Shown here: positions 13,828 to 23,440 of the stretch, in pieces
Layout of the letters: each line of letters opens with the position of its first letter
Numbering within the stretch: position 1 is the stretch's first letter
Origin: Anaerolinea sp.
GTDB lineage: Bacteria; Chloroflexota; Anaerolineae; Anaerolineales; Anaerolineaceae
Reading direction: 5' to 3'
Length of the DNA stretch: 44,858 nucleotides
NCBI GenBank assembly: GCA_029975965.1
Contig: JARKOV010000155.1
Location: forward strand, 1-44,858
Translations under genes and position numbers: made by a program
The notes under the pieces: generated by a model
The model's database searches: none
Told to the model about the DNA's origin: nothing
Seen by the model: the letters and a program-made list of their open reading frames with translations, nothing else

Positions 13828-14883
13828 ATGAATATTCAATCTTTGACACAGGTTTTAGTCGGCGTGGCCTGGTTCGCCGTCGTCGTCGCCGTGATTCTCG
13901 TCGTCATGCGCGCATCGCGCAACCAGGATACCAAAGGCGGGGGGCGGATTATCCTCGGCCTGGTCCTGCTGGCCCTTTTGTTGACCACAATGAGCTCCGG
14001 TTTGGTCTTCATCAACCCGGAAGAGCGCGGCGTGGTCATCTCGGCAGTTGCGCCGAAGGGGTATCGAGAGCAAGCCCTCGAGCCGGGTCTGAAGTTCATC
14101 ATCCCTTTTGCCGAATCGGTCGTCCGTTATCCCATCTCGCGGCAGACGTACACCATGTCGATGGTTTCATCGCCAGGGGTGACGCCTAACGACGACTCGA
14201 TCGCCGCTCGCACGGCGGACGGCCAGGAAATTCTGGTGGATGCCTCGGTCATCTACCAGATCGACCCGCTCAAAGCCGTCCAGGTGCACATCCAGTGGCA
14301 AAATCGCTACATCAATGATCTCGTTCGCCCGCAGGCGCGTGGCATCATCCGCGACGTCATATCGCAATTCGGGGTAGAAGAGGTCGTCTCCTCGCAACGC
14401 GAGACGATGGTCGCAGAATTGAACGAGCGAATGGCCACCAAATTGGCCGATAACGGCTTCTTGTTGGTCGATTTCGTCTTGCGCAACATCACCTTCTCGC
14501 CCGAGTACGCGGCCTCGGTAGAACAAAAGCAGATTGCCGAACAGCAGGCCCAGCAGGCTCGTTTTGTGGTCGAATCTAAGCGCCAGGAAGCCGAGCAAGC
14601 CCGCCAGGTCGCCCAAGGCTCCGCGGATGCCGTGGTGATCAAAGCCAAGGCGGACGCTGAGGCGCGCCTGATCCAGGCGGATGCCGAGGCGCGCTCGCTG
14701 GAGCTGATTGCCAGAGCGCTCAAAGAAAACCCCTCTTTGCTAAATTACCAGTACATCAGCAAACTTTCGCCCAACCTGCAGGTCATGCTGCTGCCCAGCG
14801 ACAGCCCATTCTTGCTTCCCTTCCCCGGAGATTTGCAGACGGTGACCGTCCAGCCAACCGCAGAGCCTCAAACCAACCCATAG
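13828..14883 (+). CDS. Prohibitin-like SPFH membrane protein
   Basis: A 351-residue prohibitin/SPFH protein. Two N-terminal hydrophobic segments (about 7-27 and 40-62) are followed by the SPFH domain (EERGVVISAVAPKGYREQALEPGLKFIIPF, about 66-95, to about 240), including VDASVIYQIDP and the NDLVRPQARGIIRDVISQF segment. The C-terminal region (EQKQIAEQQAQQARFVVESKR, about 231-300) is a long Ala/Glu/Gln coiled coil, and the tail is Thr/Pro-rich. Prohibitins form ring-shaped membrane scaffolds that regulate proteases and lipid domains. GGAGGAG lies just before the ATG. This is a third SPFH protein in the window, more canonical than the pair at 294-3319. Confidence 0.92.
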   Translation: MNIQSLTQVLVGVAWFAVVVAVILVVMRASRNQDTKGGGRIILGLVLLALLLTTMSSGLVFINPEERGVVISAVAPKGYREQALEPGLKFIIPFAESVVRYPISRQTYTMSMVSSPGVTPNDDSIAARTADGQEILVDASVIYQIDPLKAVQVHIQWQNRYINDLVRPQARGIIRDVISQFGVEEVVSSQRETMVAELNERMATKLADNGFLLVDFVLRNITFSPEYAASVEQKQIAEQQAQQARFVVESKRQEAEQARQVAQGSADAVVIKAKADAEARLIQADAEARSLELIARALKENPSLLNYQYISKLSPNLQVMLLPSDSPFLLPFPGDLQTVTVQPTAEPQTNP

Positions 14884-15033: not shown

Positions 15034-15086
15034 GGTACCAGTTTGCCGCACTGGCAGCTTGCAACCCCCGTGATCGAGGAGTCTCG

Positions 15087-16160
15087 ATGAGCGATATCCA
15101 GCCGCCGGCGCCGAGTGGAAAGCAAATTCGCCTGACCAGCCTGTCAAGCTGCGCTGGTTGAGCGTCAAAGCTTAACGCGGAAACGCTGGCGCACGTGCTG
15201 CGCCCAATCAAATCCATATTCGACCCCGGCAGTTACCCGGATTTGTTGGTCGGGCTGTCCGAGCCGGACGATGCCGCCGTCTGGCGCATCGCCGACGACC
15301 GCGCCATCGTGCTCACCACCGATTTCTTCACCCCGGTGGTCGACGACGCCTACGACTACGGGGCGATTGCGGCCGCCAACAGCCTGTCGGATGTGTACGC
15401 GATGGGCGCCGAGCCATTCCTGGCGCTCAACATCGCCGCGCTGCCGCCTGCCTTGCCGGTCGAATTGCTGAGCGAGATCGTCCGCGGAGGGGCTGAGAAG
15501 GCGCGCGAGGCGGGGGTGGTGATCGCCGGCGGGCACACGGTGCAAGATCAGGAACCCAAATTTGGCCTGGTGGTGCTGGGTATGGTCGATCCGCGCAAGA
15601 TGCTGACCAAAGCGGGCGCCCGCGCCGGCGACCGCCTGGTGCTGACCAAGCCGCTGGGGTTTGGCACCACCACCACCGCGCTCAAACGCGAGATCGCCGA
15701 TCCCGAAGATGTCGCCGAGGTGGTCGGCTGGATGAAACAGCTCAACCGTGAAGCTGCCCGGTTAGCCGGACGCTTTGGGCTGCGCAGCGGAACGGACATC
15801 ACCGGGTTCAGCCTGCTGGGTCACGGGCTCGAGCTGGCGCAGGCTTCCGGCGTGGGGCTGGCGCTCGAATTCCAGCGTATCCCGTTCGTCTCCTGCGCCC
15901 GGAAATATGCTGAGCGCTGGGCATTCCCTGGCGGGGCGAGCGATAACCGTTTGTTCTACGGACCTTCGGTAACTTTTGACCCGTCGATCGACGAGGCGAG
16001 CCAGATGCTCCTCTTCGATCCGCAGACCAGCGGGGGGTTGCTCCTGGCGGTGCCACAGGGGCAGGTCCGCTCCTTCCTGGATGCCGCCGGCGCAGCCGGC
16101 CAGCCGGCCTGGGACATCGGCGCTGTGACCGACGGACAAGGGATCGAGGTGCTGCCTTAG
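15087..16160 (+). CDS. selD: Selenide, water dikinase containing selenocysteine
   Basis: SelD makes selenophosphate from selenide and ATP for selenocysteine and selenouridine synthesis. The true frame is 357 residues and contains an in-frame TGA at codon 25 (15159-15161). Its N-terminus, IRLTSLSSCAGUASKLN, aligns with the E. coli active site IRLTQYSHGAGCGCKIS so that the TGA falls on catalytic Cys17 and the Lys is kept; the second Cys is Ser here. Downstream motifs are intact (VLTTDFFTPVVDD, GGHTVQD, TDITGFSLLGHG, FDPQTSGGLL). A stop-to-stop reading gives a false start at the GTG at 15195, which removes the catalytic loop. A hairpin right after the TGA fits a bacterial SECIS. A methyltransferase gene follows at 16 bp. 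Confidence 0.95.
15159..15204 (+). other. UGA selenocysteine codon and putative SECIS hairpin
   Basis: The TGA (15159-15161) is followed by GGCGCA (15188-15193), loop CGTGC and TGCGCC (15199-15204), a perfect 6-bp stem whose loop lies 33-37 bases after the TGA. Bacterial SECIS elements lie inside the coding region, with the SelB-binding loop within about 16-37 bases of the UGA. A second possible stem, GCGT/ACGC, lies between (15162-15178). The exact SelB contact bases cannot be set by eye. Confidence 0.7.
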
Positions 16161-22318: not shown

Positions 22319-23440
22319 TCAGGCAGGCAGTGTGATCACATCCTCAGGAGGAAGCAGGCGGTTGATCAAGTCGCCCACCAGGGTCATAATCCCGCTGCGA
22401 AGCATATCCGGCGACATCAGGCTGGCCTCCAGGGTTTCATTATCCTGGAAACGGTCGGCCTGCTTTTTTGCTCCCGACTGGATGTGCTCGATCACTTCGT
22501 GCATTTCATCCCGGTAACAGTCCAGCACGGGCCGGTCCTGTTGCTCGGCCAACAAAATCGACTTGACCGCCAGCCGGCCACTCAAAGCGGCGTTGTCCAT
22601 GCCCAACACGCGGAAAGGGTCGAGCAGACCAGCCGCATCGCCGGCCAGCAACAGGTTTCCCATCCCCAGGTAAGGGCCGCCCACCAGCTTCGACGCGAAG
22701 CCTTCTCTGCGACTGATCTTGCCCATCAACCAGTACTTCTGCTTGATGTAACGGTAAAAGCGATCGATATATTCCTTAGGGGCATGGTCTGCGCCGGTGG
22801 CGATCAACCATTCATCGTCCTTCAGGTAAACCGTGGCGAAGGTTTGGGTCGCGAAATCCACATTGTAGAACATGTACACGGTGCGCGGATCGAGCATCGC
22901 GCTGCCTTTGAAGTAATAGCACCAGATGCCGCCTTCGGCCTTGGCCGTATAATCCTGGGGACGCAAGATGCGCCGGACGCGCGACATGGCCCCATCCGCC
23001 CCAATCAGGTAGCGGGTATGCACCTTGCGCGTTTTGCCGTTGGCCTCCAAAGTCACCGCAAGCGAGGGCGCTTCCTCTTTGAAGCTCTTCAGCACGGTGT
23101 CGTCCTGGAAGATGGCCCCTTCTGCTGCCGCCAGCTCGTTCAACCAATGGTCGAACGTGGGTCGCCAAAAATTGAGCAGTTTCATGGAAACCGGGATAAA
23201 CCGTCCGCTGGGCATGACGATCTGCAACGCATCCAGCTCGTTGCGGCAAACTTTATCCGCTGGAATCTGTGCCCCGATCAATTTCTCGAAATAAGCAAAT
23301 TGCAGACCCGTGCACACCTTATTGCGTGGCACCTTAGCGCGCTCGACCAACAATGTTTACATCCCGGTCGCAGCCGCAAATCGCGCCGCCACCGACCCGG
23401 CAATCCCGCCGCCCACCACAACCACGTCGTATCGTTCCAT
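22319..23440 (-). pseudogene. Geranylgeranyl-reductase-like flavoprotein broken by a stop
   Basis: From the ATG at 23440 the frame encodes the complete N-terminus of a FAD-dependent reductase: MERYDVVVVGGGIAGSVAAR with the GxGxxG dinucleotide motif. A TAA at 23359-23357 then stops it after residue 27, and the same frame resumes with TLLVERAKVPRNKVCTGL to the normal end (LLAGDAAGLLDPFRVLGMDNAALSG). The total of 374 codons fits the geranylgeranyl-reductase-like family, which reduces isoprenoid chains of lipids or quinones. One base change (for example AAA to TAA) explains the break. Restart at the TTG at 23353 would lack the FAD motif. It may be a true nonsense mutation or a sequencing error; the rest of the frame is well kept, so the break is recent or artificial. 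Confidence 0.8.

Follow-up and report, generated by a model that had tools for sequence, protein, structure and literature searches.

An in-frame UGA predicted to encode the catalytic selenocysteine of selenophosphate synthetase (SelD) in an Anaerolinea sp. and its relatives

The selD gene of Anaerolinea sp. carries a single in-frame TGA (15159–15161). Sequence conservation makes it almost certain that selenocysteine (Sec) is incorporated there, in the catalytic position, giving a full enzyme of 357 residues. The gene lies in a 44,858-nucleotide stretch of DNA (contig JARKOV010000155.1, hereafter the window), and its product is predicted to synthesize selenophosphate in an ATP- and selenide-dependent manner. 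In the source organism, Sec would be inserted at this codon and Sec25 would act in catalysis. The features of the locus are the following:

15076..15082, + strand: GAGGAGT, Shine-Dalgarno-like, preceding ATG 15087 (direct reading)
15087..16160, + strand: selD, selenophosphate synthetase (selenide, water dikinase), read through one UGA, 357 residues (TIGR00476, PDB alignment)
15150..15152, + strand: TGC, Cys22, three residues before the Sec codon (−3, CxxU); all 81 aligned rows have Cys
15159..15161, + strand: TGA, codon 25, predicted Sec codon, aligned with E. coli Cys17 (alignment of relatives, PDB)
15165..15170, + strand: Ser27 (+2) and Lys28 (+3, the conserved Lys) (alignment)
15188..15204, + strand: predicted bacterial SECIS, stem 15188–15193 / 15199–15204, apical loop 15194–15198
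15195..15197, + strand: GTG within the SECIS loop, the gene start in automatic annotation (starts of database homologues)

By direct reading, the frame starts with ATG at 15087–15089 and, after the TGA at codon 25, stays open until TAG 16158–16160. The read-through protein scored 356.3 bits against the NCBIfam profile TIGR00476 (selD; curated cut-off 125 bits), covering profile positions 1–309 of 311. The piece from GTG 15195 alone reached 330.4 bits. The residues upstream thus add 26 bits, showing that the sequence before the TGA is homologous to SelD. In a PDB search the TGA residue aligned with the Cys of E. coli SelD (3u0o, HGAGCGCK) and of Aquifex aeolicus SelD (2yye, SSGCAAK), and the Lys at +3 of the catalytic loop was retained. 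These results bear out the initial annotation, which from the sequence alone had read the ATG 15087 frame through one TGA into SelD and had placed this TGA at E. coli Cys17, with the Lys kept. Directly upstream of selD lies an SPFH/band-7 gene (13828–14883, + strand); such a neighbor was found at most 1 kb upstream of selD in 67 of the 75 relatives with sufficient upstream sequence.

Public genome contigs were scanned with the part of selD downstream of the TGA, and the best 80 loci were kept. Their titles were nearly all Anaerolineae or Chloroflexi, with identities of 63–77%. The aligned codon was TGA in all 80, in the context CAG-TGA-A-S-K, the single exception being one locus (L023) with L replacing S. 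Protein conservation continued straight across the TGA in the profile, the alignment of relatives and the PDB alignment; the family alignment that the initial annotation had proposed as a check thus placed the TGA on the Cys position. A wider set of 298 Anaerolineae genomes had selD above the cut-off in 251. By hand count over the 150 selD rows listed from this set, exactly one TGA was present in 143 and no stop in seven; stops other than TGA did not occur in these rows. The seven rows without a stop (the fusion-size L097–L099; L107 of genome G288; L127 of G127; L128 of G241; L129 of G260) all carried Cys at the Sec position. The UGA is therefore kept in frame among the orthologs, and Cys takes its place in the full-length homologs (10 of 10 among the 120 database homologs listed), the pattern by which bacterial selenoproteins are recognized. 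Two DNA patterns were tried for counting loops and set aside. The one for the TGA loop (199 of 298 genomes) picks up chance matches and overlooks loops in which position −3 is Ala. The one for the Cys loop (72 of 298 genomes) was discarded as mostly chance, since only one (L130) of the 11 places fetched was SelD. A screen of 34 window ORFs for a TGA immediately preceding the start gave no convincing candidate for a second UGA-interrupted gene.

Downstream of the TGA we recognized a stem of 6 bp (15188–15193 with 15199–15204) with its loop (15194–15198) at bases 33–37 after the TGA. In the window sequence alone this hairpin is not significant, as 244 of 2000 synonymous resamplings folded equally well or better; its significance comes from conservation in relatives. 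Across 81 genes and 308 scored codon columns, codons +5, +8, +9, +10 and +11 after the TGA had five of the six lowest z-scores for synonymous variation (−17.5 to −23.7). The mean z was −10.5 for codons +7 to +16 and −2.1 (sd 3.2) beyond +25. The true structure had 91.4% of its cells paired, versus 25–57.5% in versions slid along the alignment (51 sequences given, 40 distinct). All 105 parsed TGA genes folded the stem, with free energies from −6.8 to −13.9 kcal/mol, as did three further TGA genes outside this set (−12.1 to −13.6 kcal/mol), making 108 of 108. In eight Cys-type genes the stem reached only 0 to −5.6 kcal/mol; these are few independent controls, because three are of fusion size and three share one loop.

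One base pair, between the first base of codon +10 and the third base of codon +14, varied in the 105 parsed genes: G-C in 61, A-T in 30, G-T in nine and mismatched in five. Whenever codon +10 started with A, codon +14 ended in T (30 of 30 genes). Carriers of the A-T pair include the distant L126, and also the Leptolinea locus L066; L076, likewise from Leptolinea, has G-C. The covariation events are few, with four changes on the tree and independent comparisons giving mostly three in the same direction, none opposite and one undecided (median p 0.25). On two of the covariation measures, sliding by −1 gave higher values than the true structure did. Further pair types were also no more numerous than in shuffles, of which 433 of 500 reached the observed number. 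Since covariation was equivocal in these slide and shuffle tests, the weight rests on the codon conservation and the paired fraction. Rfam had no match within the window. From the conservation in relatives we conclude that the stem-loop at 15188–15204 is real, a predicted SECIS of the bacterial type, in line with the initial annotation, which had seen the stem and the distance of its loop.

The machinery for Sec decoding was found in the relatives. SelB, SelA and tRNA-Sec each exceeded their curated cut-offs in all 20 relatives' genomes searched, as befits a Sec-decoding lineage; the initial annotation had inferred Sec decoding for the organism itself. The gathering score for tRNA-Sec was by itself also passed by five of 14 control genomes. 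The 20 best tRNA-Sec matches in the relatives had E ≤ 1.3e-12, and at E 1e-10 the matching controls were just two of the 14, E. coli and M. jannaschii. The anticodon was TCA in all eight tRNA-Sec loci checked. ARAGORN found no tRNA in the window; from its relatives, the source organism itself would be expected to have selA, selB and tRNA-Sec.

In the class set, SelB was above the cut-off in 239 of 298 genomes. Among the 140 that have a TGA-type selD row in the list, the hand count was 126. We examined 16 TGA genomes without a SelB match, namely the remaining 14 together with two that fitted the TGA loop pattern, G209 and G286. SelA was present in 15 of these 16 and tRNA-Sec in nine. Pieces of SelB at contig edges, or interrupted, were seen in 10, G146 was ambiguous, and SelB was not found in five (G077, G173, G206, G269 and G286). 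Among the latter, G269 is a single contig of 5.35 Mb with a TGA-type selD (L139), SelA and tRNA-Sec, in which two profiles did not find SelB; assembly frameshifts, a diverged SelB, a search miss or real absence may explain this. Eight of the nine tRNA-Sec matches in the TGA genomes without a full SelB match were 95–96 bases long, and the 20 best in the relatives were 93.

SelA, SelB and SelD have established roles. Ribosomes arriving at UGA 15159 would meet SelB with Sec-tRNA-Sec, the latter made by SelA with selenophosphate. Bound to the mRNA hairpin at 15188–15204, SelB would insert Sec, and the full 357-residue SelD would result. This enzyme would make selenophosphate from selenide and ATP; because SelD produces selenophosphate, its synthesis would depend on its own product.

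Decoding of the UGA as an ordinary amino acid, through a reassigned code or programmed read-through, is very improbable. Read-through hairpins do exist in other systems, e.g., in insect SPS genes (in the portion of PMC4561486 at hand), and nothing else in this analysis spoke for such decoding. Against it, TGA serves as an ordinary stop elsewhere in the window, ending 21 of the 34 ORFs taken as genes, and the relatives have SelA, SelB and a tRNA-Sec with anticodon TCA. The members examined that lack the stop carry Cys, the usual counterpart of Sec, and four Cys-type genomes without SelB were also without SelA (0 of 4).

An even smaller probability attaches to a true start at GTG 15195, which would give a 321-residue protein lacking the catalytic loop, with the upstream part not translated into it. 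From this GTG runs the longest standard-code ORF at the locus, and databases use it widely. We compared 120 listed homologs out of 7999 scored. The start was at the codon of GTG 15195 in 87 of them and elsewhere downstream of the TGA codon in 23; the remaining 10 were full length, all with Cys. The catalytic residue is thus missing from 110 of the 120. The window's own protein (P0001) starts at GTG 15195 in the database, as the initial annotation had foreseen for automatic gene calling, with loss of the active site. The homolog P0008 of Anaerolinea thermolimosa, a close relative that is in culture, also has 321 residues in the database, and its locus (L002) has the TGA. Three observations contradict this start: conservation at the protein level extends, in all 80 relatives, to the segment preceding the TGA (around IRLTSLSSCAG), this segment accounts for the gain in family score given above, and the GTG itself sits within the loop of the conserved RNA hairpin. 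In addition, a product without the selenide-binding residue should be inactive; the E. coli enzyme is described as having its selenide site at Cys17 and as being inactive in the C17S form (in the part of PMC3956282 available).

A lone in-frame stop in an otherwise intact gene can also come from a sequencing error (really TGC or TGT) or from decay into a pseudogene. This is just as improbable here as the GTG start: all 80 relatives, which come from other assemblies, have the identical TGA, and so do 143 of the 150 class rows listed, where no other stop occurs. The window itself holds a lone stop in an unrelated gene at 22319–23440 (− strand), by its motif presumably FAD-dependent reductase-like, where TAA 23357–23359 stands in frame between the dinucleotide-binding motif and the remaining protein; it is not a Sec codon.

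With the UGA read as Sec, the loop of the window SelD is Cys-Ala-Gly-Sec-Ala-Ser-Lys. The residue at +2 is Cys in E. coli, Ala in A. aeolicus and Ser in the window, which has an extra Cys at −3. The initial annotation had described a Sec working without its usual nearby thiol. That description is misleading. Ser does stand at +2, but a thiol there is not general, since A. aeolicus SelD has Ala, and the loop does carry a Cys, at −3 (CxxU). The window and each of the 80 relatives had this Cys(−3). At other TGA loci in the class, position −3 was Ala (nine loci) or Gly (one locus, L103), and the ten full-length Cys-type homologs also carry Cys(−3). The idea that Sec requires Cys(−3) is therefore rejected, and from the alignments we regard Cys(−3) as a lineage feature. 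The Gly locus, in genome G210, has another type of loop, HGAG-Sec-ACK, with Cys at +2. Cys22-Ala-Gly-Sec25 might form a working redox pair. A reversible selenenylsulfide between Cys(−3) and Sec would then shield the enzyme or act as a switch responding to selenium or the redox state, and SelD would be a self-dependent gate of selenium use in this lineage; we consider this unlikely.

Sec-containing SelD enzymes, together with their bacterial SECIS, have long been known (PMC1794560 and PMC4561486, each in the sections available); the initial annotation, too, stated that SelD enzymes with Sec exist. In those sections, FdhA and SelD figure as the selenoproteins with the widest distribution in bacteria (PMC1794560), and Sec is reported for 19% of SelD genes in a prokaryote reference set (PMC4561486). 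For Chloroflexi, Table 2 of PMC1794560 has three selenoproteins of three families, of which one may be SelD. The Sec trait in Chloroflexi is reported in the accessible portions of PMC1794560, PMC5322559, PMC8318568, PMC9727886 and PMC8674449. We found no naming of a Sec-containing SelD in Chloroflexi or Anaerolineae in the partial texts of the open-licence PMC literature searched, and no open-licence PMC paper combining selenophosphate synthetase, selenoprotein and Anaerolinea. Given that Sec-SelD and Sec decoding in Chloroflexi are already known, the window gene is a well-supported further Sec-SelD.

The window gene resembles the known Sec-SelD/SPS2 enzymes (TIGR00476) in family, UGA position and a bacterial SECIS just downstream. 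It differs from them in its loop, and in the class rows listed the Sec form predominates (143 of 150) instead of being the minority. The E. coli (3u0o) and A. aeolicus (2yye/2zod) enzymes belong to the same family by sequence and share Lys(+3), but the chains compared have the catalytic Cys where the window has TGA. Fusions of NADH dehydrogenase with SelD have been described (in the consulted part of PMC4561486); unlike these, the window selD is not fused. In three class genomes (L097, L098 and L099) the SelD regions lie in open frames of 743–770 residues with the loop HGLGCACK. These frames, of which only the SelD region was read, carry Cys (GLGCACK), lack a strong stem and are probably such known fusions.

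The Cys-type loci L127 (G127), L128 (G241) and L129 (G260) form one group. G260 had SelA and SelB, the two components looked for there, G241 had tRNA-Sec only, and G127 had none of the three. Among the four Cys-type genomes without SelB, SelA was present in none and tRNA-Sec in one.

The window gene is a clear example of a Sec-dependent SelD, with a predicted SECIS backed by codon conservation and one covarying pair. For the family, it means that databases hold most of the close SelD homologs (among those listed) without their catalytic residue. Within the class, G260, G241 and G127 may form a series linking the Cys form of SelD to loss of the Sec machinery, and they could serve to order the two losses.
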